Of a stretch of DNA of 64,000 bases, positions 13,337-22,479 are shown one piece after another (the stretch's first letter is position 1; each line of letters starts with the position of its first letter). The DNA is from Streptomyces sp. V3I7 (GTDB lineage Bacteria > Actinomycetota > Actinomycetes > Streptomycetales > Streptomycetaceae): positions 3,699,001 to 3,763,000 of the forward strand of contig NZ_JAUSZK010000001.1 of assembly GCF_030817495.1 (NCBI RefSeq). The letters run 5' to 3'. A program made the position numbers and the translations under genes. The notes below the pieces were generated by a model, which did not search any database, had not been told where the DNA came from, and saw only the letters and a program-made list of their open reading frames with translations.

Positions 13337-15025
13337 TCATTTGGCGTCCGCGTAGCACTCCACCACGGCCGTCGTGAACGGAAAGTGCACCGGCGTCGGT
13401 CCGAACGTCAGCCGGCCCGCCAGATCGGCCGCCTCCCGGATGGCCGCGGCCACAGTGGCGGCCTCCTCCTCGGGACAGTGCACGATCACCTCGTCGTGCT
13501 GGAAGAAGACCAGTTCGGCCGCCAGGTCCGCGCAGGTGCGCCGCAGGGCGGCGAGCATCAGCAGGGCCCAGTCGGCGGCGCTGCCCTGGACGACGAAGTT
13601 GCGGGCGAAGCGGCCGCGGGCGCGCGCGTTGGTCGAGGCGTAGCCCGGCACCCAGCCGTCCGCGGCCGGTTCCTCCGGATCGCCCTGGGGAAGGCCCGCC
13701 TCCTCGGCCGCGTCCCCGCCCGCGCCTGCCGCCGGCGGGCAGGTCCGGCCCAGCCAGGTGCGCACCAGCCGGCCCTCCTCACCGGCCCGGGCCGCGTCGT
13801 CGACGTACGCCACCGCCTGGGGGAAGCGGCGTCTGAGGGCGGCGAGGTTCTTCAGGCCGTCGCCGGAGGTCTGGCCGTAGACCGCGCCGAGCACCGCGAT
13901 TTTGGCCTGGTCGCGGTCGCCGGAGAAGGCGCGGTCGGAGACGGACTGGTAGAGGTCGCTCTCGCGGCCGGCCACCTCCATCAGGCCGGGGTCGCGGGAG
14001 ATCGCCGCCAGGACGCGCGGTTCCATCTGGTCGGCGTCGGCCACGACCAGCCGCCAGCCCGGGTCGGCGACCACGGCCCGCCGGATCACCTTGGGGATCT
14101 GCAGCGCGCCCCCGCCGTTGGTCACCCAGCGCCCGGTGACCGTCCCGCCCGCGAGGAACTCCGGCCGGAACCGCCCCTCGCGCACCCAGTTGTGGAGCCA
14201 GGACCAGCCGTGCGCCACCCAGATCCGGTACAGCTTCTTGTACTCCAGCAGCGGCTTCACCGCCGGATGGCCGAGGGACTCGATCTCCCAGCGGCGGGTG
14301 GATCCGACCTTGATCCCGGCCTGGGCGAAGGCCTTGACCACGTCGGCGGGCAGATCGGGGCGCACCCGGCGCCCGAACGCGGCCGACACCTCGTCCGCCA
14401 GCTCGGTGAGGCGGCGCGGCTCGCCCCCGCCCGCGTACCGCTCGCCGAGCAGATCGCGCAGCACCTCCCGGTGCACGTCCGCGCTCCAGGGCAGGCCCGA
14501 GCGGTTCATCTCGGCGGCCACCAGCATCCCCGCCGACTCGGCGGCGGTCAGCAGCCGCATACGGTCGGGGTGTTCGGCCTGATCGTGCCGCCGCTGCTGC
14601 TCGGCGTGGACCGCGGCGAGGTCTTCGAGCGGCAGATGGACACCCTGCGGCTCGAACAGCGAGGACTGCGCGCCCGGTTCGGCCGCGCGCTGCGGAGGAT
14701 CGGGTGGTACGGGGGCGCCGCGCAGCCGGGCCAGAGCGGCGGCCGCCGAGCGTGGCTCGCCGTACCGCCCCTCGTGGCCCAGCAGGAGTGTCTCGGCGTC
14801 CTCGACGTCGTAGCACCGCTCCACTCGCACCCCCGTGGCGAGCAGGCGCGGGTAGACCTCGGCGGTCGACCGCCACACCCAGCGCGTCACCTCCGGCCGC
14901 TCCCGTACCGCCCCGGCGAGATCGCTCTCCCGCCGGACCGGGCCGGCGAGCAGCCCGTCCCGGCCGAGGGGGGCGAGTTCCGCGCCACCGTCCTCGGCCG
15001 GGGCGAGCACCCACCGTTCGGCCAT
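13337..15025 (-). CDS. Family-A DNA polymerase-like protein, annotated elsewhere as bifunctional 3'-5' exonuclease/polymerase (562 aa)
   Basis: The C-terminal half has the three polymerase motifs: A (DADQMEPRVLA, near residue 328), B (RDQAKIAVLGAVYG) and C (QHDEVIV, near residue 509). In motif B the position of E. coli Phe762, which shapes dNTP choice, is Leu. The N-terminal ~190 residues occupy the place of a 3'-5' exonuclease, but I cannot find the usual Asp-x-Glu motif, so proofreading is doubtful. There is no 5' nuclease domain. This is not the main PolA, which should be elsewhere; a repair or translesion role is likely. CAGACT seven bases before ATG 15025 suggests a leaderless start. Confidence 0.8.
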   Translation of the reverse strand: MAERWVLAPAEDGGAELAPLGRDGLLAGPVRRESDLAGAVRERPEVTRWVWRSTAEVYPRLLATGVRVERCYDVEDAETLLLGHEGRYGEPRSAAAALARLRGAPVPPDPPQRAAEPGAQSSLFEPQGVHLPLEDLAAVHAEQQRRHDQAEHPDRMRLLTAAESAGMLVAAEMNRSGLPWSADVHREVLRDLLGERYAGGGEPRRLTELADEVSAAFGRRVRPDLPADVVKAFAQAGIKVGSTRRWEIESLGHPAVKPLLEYKKLYRIWVAHGWSWLHNWVREGRFRPEFLAGGTVTGRWVTNGGGALQIPKVIRRAVVADPGWRLVVADADQMEPRVLAAISRDPGLMEVAGRESDLYQSVSDRAFSGDRDQAKIAVLGAVYGQTSGDGLKNLAALRRRFPQAVAYVDDAARAGEEGRLVRTWLGRTCPPAAGAGGDAAEEAGLPQGDPEEPAADGWVPGYASTNARARGRFARNFVVQGSAADWALLMLAALRRTCADLAAELVFFQHDEVIVHCPEEEAATVAAAIREAADLAGRLTFGPTPVHFPFTTAVVECYADAK

Positions 15026-15074
15026 GGACGAGAGTCTGTCAGGAGGGTCTGACAATCGCCTCTGACCTGCGGTT

Positions 15075-15819
15075 TCAGTCCTTCTGAGGCGCCTCGTCCC
15101 GCTGCTCCGTCAGCAGGGCGAGCACCCTGCCGATGTACTCCTCGGTCGCCGCCTTGGTGATGCCGAGGCCGCTGAGGACGCCCTGGCCGTTCTCGTGCTC
15201 CAGCAGGGCCAGCAGGAGGTGCTCGGTGCCGATGTAGTTGTGGCCGAGGCGGAGGGCCTCGCGGAAGGTGAGTTCCAGGACCTTCTTGGCGTCCGGGCCG
15301 TACGGGATCAGCTCCGGGACGTCGTCCGCTGCGGGCGGGAGCGCCGCGGTGGCCGCCTGCCGTACGACGTCCAGGAGCACTCCCTGTGCGGTGATCGCCT
15401 TCGCGGCCAGGCCCTCCGGCTCGGCGAGCAGGCCGAGGACCAGGTGCTCGGGGCGGCCCTCGGGGTTGCGGGTGGCCACGGCCTCGTTGTGCGCGGCCAT
15501 GACCACGTTCCGCGCCCGCGGGGGTGTAGCGGCTGAAGCCCTGGCTGGGGTCGAGGTCGGCCGACTCCTTGGGCACGAACCGCTTCTGCACTGCCTGCCG
15601 GGTCACGCCCATGCTCTTGCCGATCTCGGTCCAGGATGCGCCCGAGCGGCGAGCCTGGTCGACGAAGTGACCGATCAGGTGGTCGGCCACGTCGCCGAGG
15701 TGGTCCGCGGCGATGACCGCGTCCTGGAGCTGGTCGAGCGGTTCGGGGTGGACCTTCTTGATCGCCTCGATGAGGTCGTCCAGGCGCACGGATGCGGTGA
15801 TCTTCGAGTTGGTCGCCAT
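15075..15819 (-). pseudogene. HTH / Clp-N domain protein, split by a +1 frameshift
   Basis: From ATG 15819 the frame encodes about 98 residues with a helix-turn-helix (WTEIGKSMGVTRQAVQKRF). The Clp N-terminal-like part (NPEGRPEHLVLGLL and [16 protein letters not shown]) continues to 15075 in another frame. The join falls in a run of five G at 15520-15524 (plus strand); removing one restores ...SRYTPRARNVVMAAHNEA..., the sequence I expect from relatives. It is therefore either a recent mutation or a base-calling error in a homopolymer. The family pairs DNA binding with a ClpC-type peptide-binding domain but has no ATPase, so a regulator sensing unfolded protein or a Clp adaptor is plausible. 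It has a strong promoter with operator repeats. Confidence 0.8.
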
Positions 15820-15820
15820 G

Positions 15821-15867
15821 TGTCAACCGTAGGTTGCCTCTAGGGGGGTGTCAACGGCTGGTTGACA
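15821..15867 (-). promoter_or_regulatory. Promoter with twin operators for the HTH/Clp-N gene
   Basis: On the minus strand TTGACA (15854-15849), a 17-base spacer and TACGGT (15831-15826) form a near-consensus housekeeping promoter. TACGGT ends six bases before ATG 15819 (leaderless). A perfect inverted repeat TGTCAAC-N5-GTTGACA at 15849-15867 covers the -35. A second, degenerate copy (TGTCAAC-N5-GTTGCCT) at 15821-15839 covers the -10 and start. The centres are 28 bases apart. This looks like repression, probably by the gene's own HTH protein. Confidence 0.75.
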
Positions 15868-15989
15868 GTCCATTCAGGGGCCGGCGGTGTCCGGTTGACC
15901 GCGGGTCAGACAGTTAGTGCCGGGCCTTTATCCACAGGCTGTGGACAGCGCACGGCCCGCTGTCCGTGCGGCGTGGCACGATCGAGGAC

Positions 15990-17105
15990 GTGACCAGCAC
16001 TGCCAGCACCGTCGAGCGGGCCTTCCGCGTCTCCCTCTACGACGACACCGACACCGGGCTCGACACGGGCGCCTCCCTGCTCGCGGCCGACCCCGCCGCG
16101 GACGCCGAACTCACGCGGCGTGGCGAGGACTTCGTGGCGGCGGCCTGGCAGCGCGGCTGGCAGCCCGCCGACGTCGTACGCCTGGTGCGGCGGGAGCTGA
16201 CGGACCCGCATGTGCTGCTGGCCGCCGGGCTGATCCGGACGCAGGCCGGCCGTGACCGGCCGCGCGGGCGGCGCTGGGCGGCCCAGTTGGAGGACCTGCC
16301 CGAGCACTCGATACCTGGCGTCGACCGGTTCACGCACGCCACCACCGTCCTGGAGCTGTACCGCCTGCTGCTGCGCCTGCCCGCCCTGGAGCCTCTTGAC
16401 GAGGCCCCGCCCCGTCAAGGGCGGCGGGACCAGCCCGCCTCCCGCATGCTCACCCGTGTCCGGGCGCTGCTCGCCAAGGCGGAGGCGACCGGGTTCCCGG
16501 AGGAGGCGGAGGCGCTGAGCGCCAAGGCGCAGGAACTCATGGCGCGGCACAGCATCGACGAGGCCCTGCTCGCCGCGCAGGCGCCCGCGCCGGACGCGCC
16601 GGGTGCCTGCCGGGTCGGGGTCGAGCCGCCGTACGAGCAGGCCAAGGCCGTGCTGCTGGACGCGGTGGCCCGCGCGAACCACTGCCGCGCGGTGTGGAAC
16701 GAGCCGTTCGCCTTCTCCGCGGTCGTCGGCTTCGAGGCCGACCTGGAGGCGGTCGAACTCCTCTACACCTCGCTCCTCGTGCAGGCCACGCGCGCGATGG
16801 CGAAGGCGGAGGCGGCGCAACGGGCGGGCGGCAGGAAGCGGACCAAGACCTTCCGGCAGTCCTTCCTGGCGGCCTACGCCCATCGCGTCGGCGACCGGCT
16901 CGCGGCCGCCGCCGAGACCCAGGTCACCCAGGACCTGCTCCCGGTGCTGGCGACCCGCGAGGTCGCCGTCACCGGGCGCATGGAGCGCATGTTCCCGGAG
17001 ACCACCACGACCCGCCTGCGCGGCGTGAGCGACGAGGCGGGCTGGGAGGAGGGTGTGCGCGCCGCCGACCAGGCCCAGGTGCGGGCCCGGCCGCGACTCG
17101 GCTGA
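15990..17105 (+). CDS. DUF2786-containing protein (371 aa)
   Basis: A DUF2786 segment (VRALLAKAEATGFPEEAEAL... ARHSIDEALL) lies around residues 150-185. This short domain is found in actinobacterial and phage proteins of unknown role. The N-terminal part is alpha-helical; the C-terminal ~170 residues are also helical with an Arg/Lys-rich stretch (RAGGRKRTKTFRQSF) that might bind nucleic acid. CACGAT seven bases before GTG 15990 suggests a leaderless start. It is divergent from the HTH/Clp-N gene, with 170 bases between them. Confidence 0.75.
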   Translation: MTSTASTVERAFRVSLYDDTDTGLDTGASLLAADPAADAELTRRGEDFVAAAWQRGWQPADVVRLVRRELTDPHVLLAAGLIRTQAGRDRPRGRRWAAQLEDLPEHSIPGVDRFTHATTVLELYRLLLRLPALEPLDEAPPRQGRRDQPASRMLTRVRALLAKAEATGFPEEAEALSAKAQELMARHSIDEALLAAQAPAPDAPGACRVGVEPPYEQAKAVLLDAVARANHCRAVWNEPFAFSAVVGFEADLEAVELLYTSLLVQATRAMAKAEAAQRAGGRKRTKTFRQSFLAAYAHRVGDRLAAAAETQVTQDLLPVLATREVAVTGRMERMFPETTTTRLRGVSDEAGWEEGVRAADQAQVRARPRLG

Positions 17106-17153
17106 GCCGCGCCCGGTCGGCACCGATCTTCGGTCGCCGGGGCTGAACGCTCG

Positions 17154-17687
17154 TCAGTCGCCGGGCTGCTGGAAGGCGCTCACGGAGGCGTCGGGGGTGT
17201 TCTCGGCGGCCGTGCCGGCGACCGGGCCGTACTTCCACGGGAAGCTCTGCGTGGAGTCGGAGCCGGGCAGGGAGACCTTCACGGACTCGGCCGCCAGGCT
17301 CGTCTCGCCGCCGTCCTTGCCGCGGACGTAGGAGATGGCGAACGACGCGGAGTCGCCCTTGGCGAGCTTCAGCTTCTGCGGCTTCGCGCCCTTCAGGGCG
17401 TGGACGGCCGCCGAGGTGTCGCCCTGCTGGAGGGTGACACCGGGGAAGTGGTCCAGGGTGCAGGGGGCGCTCTGGTTGGTGATGCTGACGGGCACCTCGC
17501 CGGTGTCGCCCGCGGCCGGCGCCATGCTCGCCGGCCCGATCTCCACGGAGACCGAGCCGATCTGGCAGGCGGACTTGTCCGCACTGCCGCCGTTGCTGCC
17601 ACCGGCGGCGGTGTCGCCGCCGTCGGTGCAGGCGGTCAGGGCGAGGGCGGCGGCGACGGCGGTGACGGTGAGCGGAATGGCGCGCAT
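17154..17687 (-). CDS. DUF4232-type lipoprotein (177 aa)
   Basis: Typical lipoprotein signal: MRAIPLT, a hydrophobic stretch and the lipobox LTAC with Cys20, followed by a Gly/Ser/Asp linker. The rest is a beta-rich DUF4232-like domain with two Cys (CQIGSVSVEIG and APCTLDHFPGV) that could form a disulfide. Extracytoplasmic, membrane-anchored; function not known. ATG 17687 begins exactly at the signal peptide, while longer readings upstream are non-coding. Confidence 0.75.
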   Translation of the reverse strand: MRAIPLTVTAVAAALALTACTDGGDTAAGGSNGGSADKSACQIGSVSVEIGPASMAPAAGDTGEVPVSITNQSAPCTLDHFPGVTLQQGDTSAAVHALKGAKPQKLKLAKGDSASFAISYVRGKDGGETSLAAESVKVSLPGSDSTQSFPWKYGPVAGTAAENTPDASVSAFQQPGD

Positions 17688-18008
17688 GAGAGTCGGTTCC
17701 TGTCGAGGTCGTGAGGGTGTCCAAGCATCATCACGCCTCGCACCCGCACCTGGTTGCGCGCCCCACCCGTAAACGCCCGGACGTTGGAACACCAGGGCCG
17801 TGCCGTGCGTCTGTCCTAGTGCCAGGAGTGGTCCGATCCGGACGATCCGGCGCGCGGACGAGCCATCGAAGAGCCCACCGGAGCCCACCGAAGAGCCCAC
17901 CGAAGATCACGAACGGGATCGGCGGCGGCATGTCCTCCGAGGTCCGGGGCACACGGTGGGACGGACGCGGTGACGGGCCACCGAAGCTGTAATCGCAGCA
18001 ACACTCGT

Positions 18009-18056
18009 CGTGCACGTGCATCTGCCCATGCACCTGCACGTGAACGAGGCTATGAT
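18009..18056 (+). promoter_or_regulatory. Inverted repeat and -10 box of the DUF397 gene
   Basis: CGTGCACGTGCA (18009-18020) and TGCACCTGCACG (18029-18040) form 12-base arms with one mismatch around an 8-base spacer. TATGAT (18051-18056) lies 10 bases beyond, so the right arm overlaps the -35 position. A 28-base stretch (18009-18036) recurs 26/28 identical upstream of the ATPase gene at 19161-19188. This is probably the binding site of a shared regulator, with the nearby XRE protein the best candidate. Confidence 0.7.
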
Positions 18057-18067
18057 CCGGCTCGGTC

Positions 18068-18153
18068 GACCGCAGTGACCACAGCACTATGACCACGGCA
18101 CATCGACCGCAGAACCACAGCACCATTGACCACAGCCGAAATGGCCACCACAG
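18068..18153 (+). repeat. Iterated GACCRCAG units in the DUF397 leader
   Basis: Units GACCGCAG or GACCACAG (or one base off) start at 18068, 18077, 18091, 18105, 18113, 18128 and 18146. They lie between the predicted transcription start (about 18063) and the GTG at 18179, so they would be transcribed. Confidence 0.65.
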
Positions 18154-18178
18154 CCAGTGCACCACCGGGGAGCGACCT

Positions 18179-18448
18179 GTGAACCGCGACGTCGACGGCG
18201 TAAACGGGGGGTACGAGGTGTACAACGGCATGGCCGCCACGCAACTGGTCGGCGTGGCCTGGCAGAAGAGCAGGCACAGCAACTCGCAGGGTTCCTGCGT
18301 GGAGTTCGCCCGGCTTCCCGGCGGGGACGTGGCCGTGCGCAACTCGCGCTTCCCGGAGGGCCCTGCGCTCGTCTACACGCGCGCGGAGATCGAGGCGATG
18401 CTGGCGGGCGTCAAGGACGGCGAGTTCGACCACCTCATCGCCGGCTGA
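18179..18448 (+). CDS. DUF397 (BldB/WhiJ-partner type) regulatory protein (89 aa)
   Basis: Carries the DUF397 signature: WQKSRHSNSQGSCVEFARL, then VAVRNSRFPEGPALVYTRAEIEAML. In Streptomyces such small proteins act with XRE/DUF5753 regulators and often an anti-sigma-like ATPase (whiJ and abaA-like loci, Scr1/Scr2) to control development and antibiotics. Both partner types lie next to it here. GTG 18179 follows GGGGAG with seven bases of spacing. The stop codon lies in the first unit of a tandem repeat. It is convergent with the ATPase gene. Confidence 0.85.
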   Translation: MNRDVDGVNGGYEVYNGMAATQLVGVAWQKSRHSNSQGSCVEFARLPGGDVAVRNSRFPEGPALVYTRAEIEAMLAGVKDGEFDHLIAG

Positions 18449-18519
18449 CGTCGTTCCTCATGGCCGACTGACGTCGTCGCTCATCGCCGGCTGACGTCGC
18501 TCATGGCGGGCCGACAGCG
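18434..18519. repeat. Tandem repeat spanning the DUF397 stop codon
   Basis: Units beginning CTCAT(C/G)GCCG(G/A)CTGACGTCG start at 18434, 18457, 18480 and 18500 (periods 23, 23, 20). The first is the last codons and TGA of the DUF397 gene; the others are non-coding copies, the last one degraded. They look like duplications of the gene's 3' end. Confidence 0.8.
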
Positions 18520-18579
18520 CCCGCGGAAGCGCCGCCGCCCCGCACGCGCGTAGAAACGCGATGACGGACGGCGCCGCCC

Positions 18580-19086
18580 CTAAAGACCGGCCTGCCCCTC
18601 GGGGAGCCGGAACAGCGCCCAGACCGCCTTGCCGTTGAGAGTGCCCGCGAGCGGGTACCAGCCCCAGCTGTCGCTGAAGGCGTCGACGAGGAACAGCCCG
18701 CGGCCCGACTCCGCCGAGCAGTCGTCCGGCGTGCGCGCGACCGGGGAGTCGTGACTGGGGTCGCGGACCGCGCAGACCAGCCGGTCGTTCCAGCGCATCA
18801 GATGCAGACGTACGGGCGCGGTCCCGTCGGTGCGGCAGTCGGCGTCGCCCGGCAGCGCGTGCCGCAGGGCGTTGGTGACCAGTTCGGAGACGACCAGGCA
18901 GATGTCGTCGAAGCGGTCCCCGACGTCCCACTGGCCGAGCATGCCGCGGGTGAACGCCCTTGCCTCGCGCACCGCTTCGTACCGGGCGGGGAGGGCGCAG
19001 GACGCGGCGCTCGACGCGGCCGAGGGGTCCAGCGGCGGAAGGCCCTGCCGTAACGGCTCGAGCATGGTCGATCCATTCGTCCCCAT
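18580..19086 (-). CDS. Anti-sigma-factor-like ATP-binding protein, RsbW/SpoIIAB type (168 aa)
   Basis: GHKL ATPase fold: N box SELVTNALRHA (about residues 75-85), G1 box-like VRDPSHDSP and G2 box SGRGLFLVDAFSDSWG. In Streptomyces these single-domain kinases can bind sigma factors or DUF397 partners. The N-terminus is poorly conserved and has no sensor domain. ATG 19086 is preceded by GGGAG eight bases upstream; a GTG at 19158 in frame lacks a ribosome site and lies near the regulatory element, so I rejected it. It converges on the DUF397 gene and diverges from the XRE gene. Confidence 0.83.
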   Translation of the reverse strand: MGTNGSTMLEPLRQGLPPLDPSAASSAASCALPARYEAVREARAFTRGMLGQWDVGDRFDDICLVVSELVTNALRHALPGDADCRTDGTAPVRLHLMRWNDRLVCAVRDPSHDSPVARTPDDCSAESGRGLFLVDAFSDSWGWYPLAGTLNGKAVWALFRLPEGQAGL

Positions 19087-19160
19087 GCGAGGCACTCCCG
19101 GGAATTCGCGGTCGTTGCGATGCAGCGGTGGCGCGGGACCATGGTTTCGGATGCTCACAG

Positions 19161-19188
19161 CAGATGCAAGGGCAGATGCACGTGCACG
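19161..19188 (-). promoter_or_regulatory. Copy of the 28-base element upstream of the ATPase gene
   Basis: Read on the minus strand it matches 26 of 28 bases of the element at 18009-18036 and has the same orientation relative to its gene. Here the right arm of the inverted repeat is degraded. AACCAT, about 14 bases downstream, is a possible -10. The segment 19190-19350 beyond it is unusually AT-rich for this DNA and probably also holds the XRE promoter. Confidence 0.65.
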
Positions 19189-19382
19189 CGGCCGAATTGG
19201 GCCTCCCGTACCGCTTGTTGGTTATTTTTTCCGCCACCTTCGTGTACTTGTCCGGCCTTCCCCTTGCGTCTTGCCGCGGGAAGCCTTTGATGTTTCTCCG
19301 TTTCTGTAATCGAGCGAGTACTGCTCGGAGTGTTTTAGTGGCAGACTGCGCCCTCTGAAGACGGTTGGGGAGGCTGGCGGAC

Positions 19383-20243
19383 GTGAGTGCGGGAGAGCCC
19401 GGATCGGTGGTGCGGCGGATGCTGCTCGGCTCGCAACTCAGGCGGCTGCGGGAGGCGCGTGGCATCACGCGCGAGGCGGCGGGGTACTCGATCCGTGCTT
19501 CCGAGTCGAAGATCAGCCGGATGGAGCTGGGCCGGGTGAGCTTCAAGACGCGTGATGTGGAAGACCTGTTGACGCTGTACGGCATCGCGGACGGAGCGGA
19601 GCGCACCTCGCTCCTCTCCCTCGCGCGCGAGGCCAACGTCGCGGGCTGGTGGCACAGTTACTCGGACGTCCTGCCGAGCTGGTTCCCCACCTACGTCGGC
19701 CTGGAGGGCGCGGCCGCCCTCATCCGTACGTACGAAGTCCAGTTCGTGCACGGGCTGTTGCAGACCGAGGAGTACGCGCGCGCGGTCGTGCGGCGCGGCA
19801 TGAAGGGCGCGAGCGACGCGGACGTGGAGCGGCGTGTGGCACTGCGCCTGGAGCGGCAGCGCTTTCTCGCCTCCGAGAACGGACCCGAGTTCCACATCGT
19901 CCTGGACGAGGCCGCGTTGCGCCGGCCGTACGGCGACCGCGAGGTGATGCGCGGCCAGCTCCAGCACCTGATCGACGTCTCCGAGCGGCCCAACGTCCGT
20001 CTCCAGATCATGCCGTTCGGCTTCGGCGGCCACTCCGGCGAGTCCGGCGCCTTCACGATTCTCAGCTTCCCGGAGTCCGACCTCTCGGACGTCGTCTACC
20101 TCGAGCAGCTCACCAGCGCGCTGTACCTGGACAAGTCCGAGGACGTCGCCCAGTACGAGAAGGCGATGAAGGAGCTCCAGCAGGACAGCCCGGGGCCGGG
20201 GGAGAGCCGCGATCTTCTGCGCGGACTCCTTCAACTCTCCTGA
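19383..20243 (+). CDS. XRE-family regulator with DUF5753 domain (286 aa)
   Basis: An HTH lies at about residues 12-66 (LGSQLRRLREARGITREAAG... SESKISRMELGR), followed by the DUF5753 ligand-like domain with hallmark segments such as IRTYEVQFVHGLLQTEEYARAV and LDEAALRRP. This is the WhiJ/AbaA-type partner of DUF397 proteins. GGGGAGG nine bases before GTG 19383 fixes the start. It is divergent from the ATPase gene across 296 bases that hold one copy of the shared 28-base element, so it may control both neighbours. No membrane segment. Confidence 0.88.
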   Translation: MSAGEPGSVVRRMLLGSQLRRLREARGITREAAGYSIRASESKISRMELGRVSFKTRDVEDLLTLYGIADGAERTSLLSLAREANVAGWWHSYSDVLPSWFPTYVGLEGAAALIRTYEVQFVHGLLQTEEYARAVVRRGMKGASDADVERRVALRLERQRFLASENGPEFHIVLDEAALRRPYGDREVMRGQLQHLIDVSERPNVRLQIMPFGFGGHSGESGAFTILSFPESDLSDVVYLEQLTSALYLDKSEDVAQYEKAMKELQQDSPGPGESRDLLRGLLQLS

Positions 20244-20300
20244 ATCACAAGTAGCATGACGGCCAATCAGACCAAGGTGTCGATCTGGTTTGTTCAGGTT

Positions 20301-20316
20301 CGATCAGTGTTGATCG
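20301..20316. promoter_or_regulatory. Short inverted repeat upstream of the aldehyde dehydrogenase
   Basis: CGATCA-gtgt-TGATCG, perfect 6-base arms, 28 bases before the ATG. It could be a small operator, but it is too short to be sure. Confidence 0.35.
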
Positions 20317-20343
20317 GGTGTCTGCTAGGGATTGAGGGATCAC

Positions 20344-21807
20344 ATGTCGTCGTCCTACTTCACCGACCTGGCTCAGCAGTACATCGACGGTGAGTGGCGC
20401 CCGGGCACCGGCTCCTGGGACATCATCGACTTCAACCCGTACGATGGTGAGAAGCTGGCGTCGATCACCATAGCCACGGTCGACGAGGTGGATCAGGCCT
20501 ATTCCGCGGCCGCCCGCGCGCAGAAGCAGTGGGCCGCGACCAATCCGTACGCCCGCCGCTCCGTGTTCGAGAAGGCGCTGCGCCTGGTCGAGGAGCGCGA
20601 GGAGGAGATCGCCGAGGCGATCGTCGCCGAGCTCGGCGGCACCCGCCTGAAGGCCGCGTTCGAGCTGCACCTCGCCAAGGAGTTCCTGCGCGAGGCGATC
20701 CACCTGGCGCTCAGCCCCGAGGGGAAGATCGTCCCGTCGCCGGTGGACGGCAAGGAGAACCGCGTCTACCGCGTCCCGGTCGGCGTCGTCGGCGTCATCA
20801 GTCCCTTCAACTTCCCCTTCCTGCTCTCGATCAAGTCGGTCGCCCCGGCCCTCGCGCTCGGCAACGGCGTGGTCCTCAAGCCGCACCAGAACACCCCGAT
20901 CACCGGTGGCTCCCTGGTCGGGAGGATCTTCGAGGACGCGGGCCTGCCGGCCGGACTGCTCAACGTCGTCATCACGGACATCGCGGAGATCGGCGACGCC
21001 TTCATCGAGCACCCGGTCCCGAAGGTCATCTCCTTCACCGGCTCCGACCAGGTCGGCCGCCACGTCGCCACCGTCTGCGCCCAGCACTTCAAGCGCTCGG
21101 TCCTCGAACTCGGCGGCAACAACGCGCTGGTGGTCCTCGACGACGCCGACGTCGACTACGCGGTCGACGCCGCGGTCTTCAGCCGGTTCGTGCACCAGGG
21201 TCAGGCCTGCATGGCGGCCAACCGCGTCCTCGTGCACCGCTCGGTGGCGGACGAGTTCACCGAGAAGTTCACCGCCAAGGTGCGCGGGCTGAAGACGGGC
21301 GACCCGAGCGACCCGGCGACCGTGATCGGCCCGGTCATCAACTCCTCGCAGGCGGACGCCCTGTCCGGCGTCGTCCAGCAGGCCCTCGCCGAGGGCGCGA
21401 CGGCCCTGGTGCACGGCACGACCACCGACAACCTGGTCGAGCCGTCGGTCCTGACGGACGTCCCCGCGGACTCGGAGCTGCTGCGCCAGGAGGTCTTCGG
21501 CCCGGTCGTCTTCCTCCTCACCTTCGACGACGAGGACGAGGCCGTCCGCATCGTCAACGACAGCCCCTACGGCCTGAGCGGCGCCGTCCACACCGCCGAC
21601 ATCGAGCGCGGCGTGAACTTCGCCAAGCAGATCGACACCGGCATGTTCCACGTGAACGACGGCACCGTCCACGACGAGCCGATCGTCCCCTTCGGCGGCG
21701 AGAAGCACTCGGGCGTCGGCCGGCTGAACGGCGAGACGATGCTGGACGCGTTCACCACGACCAAGTGGATCTCGGTGCAGCACGGGCGCAGCGCGTTCCC
21801 CTTCTAG
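20344..21807 (+). CDS. Aldehyde dehydrogenase, benzaldehyde/vanillin type (487 aa)
   Basis: NAD(P)-dependent oxidation of aldehydes to acids. Motifs in order: the conserved NFPF (GVISPFNFPF), the cofactor-fold FTGSDQVGR, the catalytic Glu in LELGGNNALVVLDDAD, the catalytic Cys in FVHQGQACMAANR, and EVFGPVVFLLTF near the C-terminus. The GGNNALVV variant and the GQACMA active site resemble the benzaldehyde / vanillin / salicylaldehyde dehydrogenase group. GAGGGAT six bases upstream fixes ATG 20344. It stands alone; the substrate cannot be told from context. Confidence 0.9.
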   Translation: MSSSYFTDLAQQYIDGEWRPGTGSWDIIDFNPYDGEKLASITIATVDEVDQAYSAAARAQKQWAATNPYARRSVFEKALRLVEEREEEIAEAIVAELGGTRLKAAFELHLAKEFLREAIHLALSPEGKIVPSPVDGKENRVYRVPVGVVGVISPFNFPFLLSIKSVAPALALGNGVVLKPHQNTPITGGSLVGRIFEDAGLPAGLLNVVITDIAEIGDAFIEHPVPKVISFTGSDQVGRHVATVCAQHFKRSVLELGGNNALVVLDDADVDYAVDAAVFSRFVHQGQACMAANRVLVHRSVADEFTEKFTAKVRGLKTGDPSDPATVIGPVINSSQADALSGVVQQALAEGATALVHGTTTDNLVEPSVLTDVPADSELLRQEVFGPVVFLLTFDDEDEAVRIVNDSPYGLSGAVHTADIERGVNFAKQIDTGMFHVNDGTVHDEPIVPFGGEKHSGVGRLNGETMLDAFTTTKWISVQHGRSAFPF

Positions 21808-21939
21808 AAGTTCCCTCGCCGCTGCGGAAGTTCCTCAGCCGAGCCTGGCCCTCGCGGACAGCCGTTGTCAGTGGGGGCCCGTACCGTTTTCGACATCGGG
21901 CACGACGACCGTCATGCCCCGGGGGACAAGGAGCCGATC

Positions 21940-22479
21940 ATGGTCACTCATGTGCGAGCCGAGGCGCAAGGCGACGAGCGCGGAGCGCTGCTGGCCTTCC
22001 TCGAGGAACAGCGCGGCGGCATCCGGCGGGCCGTGCTGGGGCTGACGGACGAGCAGGCCGCGAGCCGGCCCACCGCCAGTGAGCTGTCGCTCGGCGGTCT
22101 GGTCAAGCACGTCGCCGAGGTCGAGCAGCACTGGGTGGCCCTCGCCAAGGACGAGCCGCCGGCCGTGCAGCGCGACCAGTCCGACTGGCACGAGGGCTTC
22201 GTGCTGGGCGAGGGGGAGACGGTCGCCGCGCAGCTGGCGTTCTGGGAGAAGACCGCCGCCGAGACGGAGGCGTTCATCCGCGCCGCGCCCAGCCTCGAAG
22301 ACACCTTCGCGCTGCCCGAGGCGCCCTGGTTCCCGCCGGGCGAGCGCGTCTCCCTGCGCTGGGTGCTCCTGCACCTGATCCGCGAGACGGCCCGGCACGC
22401 CGGCCACGCCGACATCCTCCGCGAGTCGCTGGACGGGAAGACGGCGTTCGAGCTGGTGGCCCTGGAGCAGGAGGGCTGA
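21940..22479 (+). CDS. DinB-family protein (179 aa)
   Basis: Four-helix DinB/YfiT-like fold with the three metal-site His spread as usual: LVKHVAEVEQHW near residue 50 and RETARHAGHADILRE near residue 150. In actinomycetes these are often thiol-dependent (mycothiol or bacillithiol) transferases or detoxification proteins. AAGGAG six bases upstream supports ATG 21940. The reading upstream from 21865 has no ribosome site. It is followed by a MITE-like element. Confidence 0.83.
   Translation: MVTHVRAEAQGDERGALLAFLEEQRGGIRRAVLGLTDEQAASRPTASELSLGGLVKHVAEVEQHWVALAKDEPPAVQRDQSDWHEGFVLGEGETVAAQLAFWEKTAAETEAFIRAAPSLEDTFALPEAPWFPPGERVSLRWVLLHLIRETARHAGHADILRESLDGKTAFELVALEQEG

Follow-up and report, generated by a model that had tools for sequence, protein, structure and literature searches.

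We analysed a 64,000-nucleotide stretch of the genome of Streptomyces sp. V3I7 (called the window; positions count from its first letter) with regard to a short sequence element that occurs twice in a small regulatory gene cluster. The cluster comprises, in window order, a DUF397 gene on the forward strand, a convergent HATPase_c_2 gene on the reverse strand and an XRE/DUF5753 regulator gene that is divergent from the ATPase gene; start codons are predicted. With an XRE protein carrying HTH and DUF5753 domains, a DUF397 protein and a HATPase_c-domain protein, all recognised by Pfam, every member of a whiJ-abaA-bldB trio is present. The features are:

18009..18045, forward strand: element copy 1, made of the 12-bp units GTGCACGTGCAT / CTGCCCATGCAC / CTGCACGTGAAC, upstream of the DUF397 gene
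18051..18056, forward strand: conserved -10-like hexamer TATGAT of the predicted DUF397 promoter
18179..18448, forward strand: DUF397 (BldB-type) gene, 89 amino acids, SCO3424 orthologue (PF04149, 68.9 bits on a longer open reading frame)
18179, forward strand: putative GTG start of the DUF397 gene, placed by the ribosome-binding-site-like GGGGAG
18580..19086, reverse strand: HATPase_c_2 gene (AbaA/RsbW-like, putative anti-sigma protein), SCO3423 orthologue (PF13581, 49.8 bits)
19086, reverse strand: putative ATG start of the ATPase gene, kept in 98 of 101 orthologues
19051..19053, reverse strand: TTA (bldA-type) leucine codon near the N terminus of the ATPase
19139..19148, reverse strand: block GAAACCATGG downstream of copy 2, conserved at 80-99% per column in 102 loci
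19160..19188, reverse strand: element copy 2, GTGCACGTGCAT / CTGCCCTTGCAT / CTGC, upstream of the ATPase gene
19383..20243, forward strand: WhiJ-type XRE regulator gene (HTH_31 and DUF5753) with a putative GTG start, SCO3421 orthologue

A preliminary description of the window had reported a 28-base element with a second copy identical at 26 of 28 positions, and this was borne out: arms of 29 nt at 18009-18037 (forward) and 19160-19188 (reverse) match at 27 of 29 positions (93% complementary). The best opposite-strand 29-mer match between 17000 and 21000 is this score of 27, compared with 25 for the best among 60 first-order shuffles. With up to three mismatches allowed, the 23-mer GTGCACGTGCATCTGCYCWTGCA is matched twice in the window and not once in 100 window shuffles; the whole 6.55-Mb genome holds two matches only, both of them element copies. 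With these two sites only, the regulon in the window genome looks self-contained, as had been proposed. Both copies have the same orientation with respect to the gene downstream, as described before, and the 'similar distance' to the two genes proved loose, copy 1 lying 141 bp from the predicted DUF397 start and copy 2 73 bp from the predicted ATPase start. The two copies share their first two units. The inverted repeat with 12-base arms seen earlier in copy 1 is one imperfect reading that fits several registers, and the element is better described as a direct-repeat array of 12-bp units starting with the palindrome TGCACGTGCA. A known RNA element was rejected, since the sole match in Rfam was sub-threshold and lay off the element.

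Conservation and spacing of the element

Within Streptomyces, we examined 104 loci with a recognised XRE gene, taken from 24 relatives including the window's own genome (L001) and from 80 GTDB contigs. Both copies were present in 103 of them (at most three mismatches of the 16-base core); in the sole exception, L003, copy 1 is absent within the sequence stretch examined. Positions 2-16 of the copy-2 core show 99-100% identity in 102 loci. The regular expression used for the 104-locus count missed L025-L030, which were handled separately. L039 and L061, being duplicates of L002 and L006, are excluded from the spacing and TTA counts; other overlaps between the two genome collections may remain. 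On the scale of genomes, the exact 16-mer core GTGCACGTGCATCNGC was found in 381 of 392 Streptomyces genomes, about 269 of them with exactly one match per strand, about 107 with a single match and 5 with another pattern, and among the matches listed most paired cores are separated by 1.0-1.3 kb. As a control, the reversed core pattern matched about 33 genomes. All 11 genomes without the exact core have an XRE orthologue and a copy 2 that differs at one position from the copy-2 consensus, and copy 1 was seen in 5 of the 11, in stretches that reach only 1.5 kb upstream.

The hexamer TATGAT lies within 120 bp of the core in all 101 Streptomyces loci measured, at a distance of 41 bp in 83 loci, 42 in 8, 43 in 2, 53 in 6 and 77 in 2. 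Because the larger spacing variants are +12 and +36, the large length changes of copy 1 correspond to whole repeat units; the small changes amount to 1-2 bp. Copy 1 had been placed over the -35 of a TATGAT promoter, and of this claim the hexamer stands, whereas a sigma-70-like promoter with a -35 was not found between 17700 and 19500; the array thus occupies the expected -35 place of the DUF397 promoter. At the other copy, GAAACCATGG has about the same position relative to the element as the -10 of copy 1, and a clear -10 was not identified in this region.

To follow the element beyond the genus, 67 orthologous loci were compared. Streptomyces supplied 13 of them, family f3 another 13 and family f2 a single one; 15 other genera of the family contributed 20, and six other families of the class a further 20, so that 54 of the 67 lie outside Streptomyces. 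Sites were counted with eight core-like 10-mers, picked after the outgroup sites had been viewed. In 63 of the 67 loci a trio gene has such a 10-mer in the 300 bp upstream of it. For 138 of all 151 occurrences this gene is the ATPase or DUF397 gene, and many of the 138 are at the same time upstream of a divergent XRE gene; of the rest, 1 is upstream of the XRE gene only and 12 are elsewhere. The 76 paralogous whiJ loci of five Streptomyces genomes contain 7 such 10-mers in 456 kb (14 of 90 loci with an XRE match below 180 amino acids were left out; all 90 contain 7 in 540 kb). The 23-mer pattern was matched in 21 of 24 genomes searched. Of the misses, G503 has core-like 10-mers upstream of both partner genes, and in G421 and G428 the XRE orthologue was not found at 1e-80 with 20 first-look candidates scored per genome; G470 has an XRE orthologue (L293).

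Rearranged loci separate the partners from the regulator. In L253, L257, L258, L267, L310-L312, L321 and L322, the 300 bp upstream of the XRE gene contain no site; in L310-L312 the ATPase gene was not detected and the DUF397 gene has a site upstream of it. Family f3 has an inverted DUF397 gene, and even so the site stands directly upstream of this gene in most loci. When genes are rearranged, it is the ATPase and DUF397 partners that keep the sites and not the XRE gene, and we therefore rejected an autoregulatory site of the XRE gene as the general role of the element. Conservation at orthologous loci, on which the preliminary description had staked its proposal, is seen in Streptomyces loci and genomes as well as in other genera and families, and it supports a trio tied by the shared element.

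Some loci show additional features. Extra TGCACGTGCA-like sites are located downstream, near the ATPase start and beside GACCATGG or a similar sequence, in L254-L256, L264-L266, L269 and L270, all from other genera. L264 contains two adjacent XRE genes of the SCO3421 type, and in L025, from another family, the DUF397 gene is directly 3' of the XRE gene and there is one element copy. Outside the orthologous group, a core-like 10-mer near a trio gene was seen in two of the 76 paralogues (L116, L159) and in two of the 20 other loci (L221, L290), which may reflect chance or cross-talk.

The candidate binder and the sign of control

What is observed is the element itself, its two-site specificity in the window genome and its conservation, together with the 12-bp steps of copy 1 and the way in which the element stays attached to the partners through rearrangements. 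Our reading, to which we assign a probability of roughly 70%, is that the element serves as a private operator, by which the WhiJ-type XRE/DUF5753 regulator would co-control both partner genes of its own trio. It probably represents the site that this regulator binds, and sequence comparison and analogy make the XRE protein a likely binder. Mapped on a tree of 163 XRE proteins, the presence of the element requires 10 changes, a figure that stands without a shuffled control; the best clade (support 94) contains 53 proteins with the element and 4 without, and 14 element loci fall outside it, ten of them distant orthologues and four not. Glu-41 in the recognition helix is found in 60 of 67 element loci and in 15 of 96 others. 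Conservation of the HTH exceeds that of the C-terminal part in 15 orthologues of alignment A1 (0.66-0.93 versus 0.51-0.80). By analogy, WhiJ9 binds three direct repeats adjoining its target (PMC10294661).

In the proposed mechanism, the regulator would bind the tandem TGCACGTGCA-led 12-bp units at the DUF397 and ATPase promoters, and binding over the expected -35 place would control both genes together. We lean slightly towards activation of both partner promoters through the array, since the search for a -35 turned up no good hexamer and iosA, the neighbour of WhiJ9, depends on this regulator for its activation: in a bldB mutant iosA is up about 750-fold at 14 h, and the rise requires WhiJ9 (PMC10294661). 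The DUF397 protein may then restrain the regulator, giving a negative feedback loop; analogy tips the balance a little in favour of this step, BldB having failed to bind DNA while contacting BldB9 in a two-hybrid assay (PMC10294661). The ATPase would be the output of the circuit, with about even chances that it acts as an anti-sigma protein, and because its gene carries a TTA codon its synthesis would depend on the bldA tRNA. The preliminary description had cast the DUF397 protein and the ATPase as an antagonist pair. We rejected this idea: evidence for direct opposition was not found, and in the best-studied relatives it is the WhiJ-type regulator to which BldB/DUF397 proteins are linked, with AbaA genes as the regulated output.

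A number of points weigh against a private operator with an activating regulator. The six more distant rows of A1 have the same bias (HTH 0.67-0.75, C-terminal 0.41-0.58), so that HTH conservation is not diagnostic of a binder, and restriction to a clade cannot by itself name the binder because the XRE, ATPase and DUF397 genes are inherited together. Shared descent of the trio could thus explain part of the clade, Glu-41 and HTH evidence, and for this reason we infer the XRE protein as binder rather than observe it. Four of the 67 orthologues (L313, L318, L319 and L326, the last being the second-best XRE match of genome G584) have no core-like 10-mer near a trio gene. The same holds for L026 and L027, XRE relatives without a detected trio that were grouped with the 'others'; if they are counted as orthologues, the figure becomes 63 of 69. 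The assembly G001 (79% complete, 630 contigs) contains the exact core, yet its XRE orthologue was not found. Among WhiJ paralogues, the Scr1 orthologue (Cpb1) is reported to bind the chiA promoter and SCO1979 its own upstream region. As to the sign of control, copy 1 extends into the -35/-10 spacer, a position that would also suit repression, and in the published whiJ model WhiJ represses and the DUF397 protein relieves (PMC6262351).

Clearly less probable than the private operator set out above, though a serious contender, is a circuit in which the XRE protein represses both partners through the same operator and the DUF397 protein relieves repression as in the WhiJ/SCO4542 model, which would make DUF397 synthesis self-reinforcing. 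The overlap of copy 1 with the expected -35 and the spacer, the extra downstream TGCACGTGCA sites near the ATPase start in several other genera and the whiJ genetics as described in PMC6262351 speak for it, whereas the absent consensus -35 suggests a promoter in need of help and the neighbouring gene of WhiJ9 needs this regulator to be activated (PMC10294661). An unrelated, unlinked regulator with only these two targets is unlikely. It would accommodate G001, an incomplete assembly, and it draws on the inferred tie between XRE protein and DNA, but it fits poorly with two-site specificity inside one trio and with an element concentrated in one XRE clade with Glu-41 in the recognition helix; it also fits poorly with G421 and G428, in which neither the element pattern nor the XRE orthologue was found in the searches given above.

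The shared protein families also bring to mind a type II toxin-antitoxin module with a DUF397 toxin, an XRE antitoxin and an autoregulatory operator, as XRE/DUF397 pairs have been predicted to be (cited in PMC10364602 and PMC6262351). We consider this very improbable: 14 S. coelicolor XRE/DUF397 pairs, SCO3421 not included, showed no such behaviour (PMC10364602), rearranged loci lack the element ahead of the XRE gene, and in place of a bicistronic autoregulated operon the window has an ATPase gene separating the XRE and DUF397 genes. That the two copies reflect chance or a recent functionless duplication, similar by descent only, has nothing but their proximity in its favour and is already refuted by the conservation data, namely genus-wide retention, copy-2 core columns of 99-100%, the 12-bp steps and retention through rearrangement.

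Relation to known systems

The closest described system is WhiJ9-BldB9-IosA of S. venezuelae (PMC10294661), which likewise has a WhiJ-type XRE gene beside a DUF397 gene and a divergent target, with a binding site made of direct repeats between the divergent genes. As there, the window locus has direct repeats (12 bp, with +12 and +36 variants) in the promoter region of a partner gene. It differs in having TGCACGTGCA-led repeats 12 bp apart at promoter distance, with one copy each for the ATPase and DUF397 genes; the WhiJ9 repeats have the sequence CGXXCTCAAC, are located 113 bp ahead of the iosA start and have been analysed for a single partner, and the bldB9 promoter is inside whiJ9 (PMC10294661). 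With the whiJ / SCO4542 / SCO4544 locus the window trio has three gene families in common, but its DUF397 gene is separated from the XRE gene, convergent to the ATPase gene and equipped with its own element copy; in the whiJ-type pairs of PMC10364602 the XRE gene comes first and the DUF397 gene second. The XRE protein of the window scores above the cut-off of the SCO1979-based model NF058600 (see below), and SCO1979 differs in being followed by its DUF397 gene.

The gene trio and its family are already known, and the operator on both partner genes appears to be new. A literature search by element sequence returned no Streptomyces paper by title, and the operator was not found in the accessible literature on SCO3421/3423/3424, SCO1979/1980, whiJ/bldB/abaA and DUF5753/DUF397, a scope that covers papers outside subscription. 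DNA targets are mentioned there for few WhiJ paralogues, namely iosA for WhiJ9, chiA for Cpb1/Scr1 and its own upstream region for SCO1979; for other AbaA genes, the BldB authors put forward control by the WhiJ protein encoded next to them, as speculation (PMC10294661). Streptomyces has many copies of the WhiJ/AbaA/BldB cluster, and they influence both sporulation and the production of antibiotics. For the WhiJ paralogue with the widest conservation, an operator is now predicted at base level, with WhiJ-type direct-repeat control through one operator copy per partner gene. This makes a poorly understood family of developmental switches directly testable, and the 12-bp length changes and rearranged loci provide natural variants. 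If the operator also controls the DUF397 gene, the circuit would include feedback on the restrainer, a logic that the current model lacks.

It is a tentative and rather doubtful extension that each of the roughly 20 paralogous WhiJ trios of a Streptomyces cell has a private direct-repeat operator, differing in sequence and period and serving mainly its own partners. The switches would then be insulated at the DNA level and joined only via BldB-type contacts, the SCO3421 trio being an ancient case whose operator was kept through rearrangements across several families and tuned by the number of 12-bp units. The odds are lowered by the reported binding of the Scr1 orthologue at the distant chiA promoter. 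Direct repeats of 9-14 bp reached p<=0.01 in 11 of 92 test windows at other whiJ paralogues and in 15 of 368 control windows (Mann-Whitney p=0.12), so that a general enrichment is weak and only suggestive. Another paralogue group (L140, L166, L184, L200) has an 11-bp direct repeat around TGTCCGG between the ATPase and XRE genes, a candidate operator of different sequence, and a further group (L158, L179) has GGAACTCTCA repeats at 14-bp spacing.

Orthology and further features of the locus

The trio is a whiJ-abaA-bldB cluster orthologous to S. coelicolor SCO3421-SCO3424, as deduced from the accessible part of PMC4255298 and from an anchor at SCO3419. In this account SCO3421-SCO3423-SCO3424 resembles the window trio as the most widely conserved WhiJ paralogue with a TTA codon in the AbaA-like gene and an aldehyde dehydrogenase (ALDH) neighbour; the accessible part describes gene conservation and the TTA codon and mentions no operator. 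A sigma-E site published for sco3419 (PMC6767563) falls in the 3' end of the ALDH gene adjoining the XRE gene, with an exact match in L059 and L073 and 25 of 29 positions in the window, which makes the ALDH gene the presumed SCO3420 and the XRE gene the presumed SCO3421. For sco3424, the published site had no counterpart in window positions 15001-22000 (best match with 11 mismatches). The window thus has the TTA codon in the AbaA-like gene and the SCO3419/3420 neighbourhood of the SCO3421-SCO3424 group, a comparison made via published sites and not with S. coelicolor sequence. The TTA codon is present in 95 of 101 parsed ATPase orthologues, in 94 at one codon position (L022 is absent from this count), and an alternative GTG start lies three codons upstream of the ATG in 100 of 101. 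From gene numbering, the S. venezuelae equivalent may be the bldB7 locus.

The XRE protein scores 57.5 bits with PF13560 and 205.1 bits with PF19054. The 'WhiJ/AbaA type' given to it at the outset is right in its first half; AbaA is the name of the ATPase member. With NCBIfam NF058600, 'Sco1979 family transcriptional regulator', it scores 387 bits (cut-off 350), and three paralogues of the same genome score higher (L113 454, L118 432, L117 406), on which ground we rejected this label as a statement of orthology. The equivalog model accepts 4 of 7 WhiJ paralogues tested from this genome, and annotations that use it will therefore mix paralogues. The ATPase is not RsbW itself, with 19.4 bits against an RsbW equivalog cut-off of 155 bits. 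Searches of solved structures by sequence gave no match for any of the three trio proteins.

The XRE leader (19300-19383) is strongly conserved across 70 aligned Streptomyces loci as GTAACCGG-ACGAGTACTGCTCG-AAGTGTTTTAGTGGCAGAC...GGTTGGGGAGG. With a terminator-like hairpin inside it, this leader may represent either the XRE promoter or an RNA element. A 23-bp unit is present in three tandem copies at 18434-18502, from the C terminus of the DUF397 protein on through its stop codon. According to the accessible literature, S. coelicolor SCO3424 is listed in a sigma-E regulon table, SCO3423 is among the sigma-E sites found only under ethanol stress, and SCO3423 was up-regulated in a glucose comparison; these entries point to possible stress and carbon inputs to the locus.

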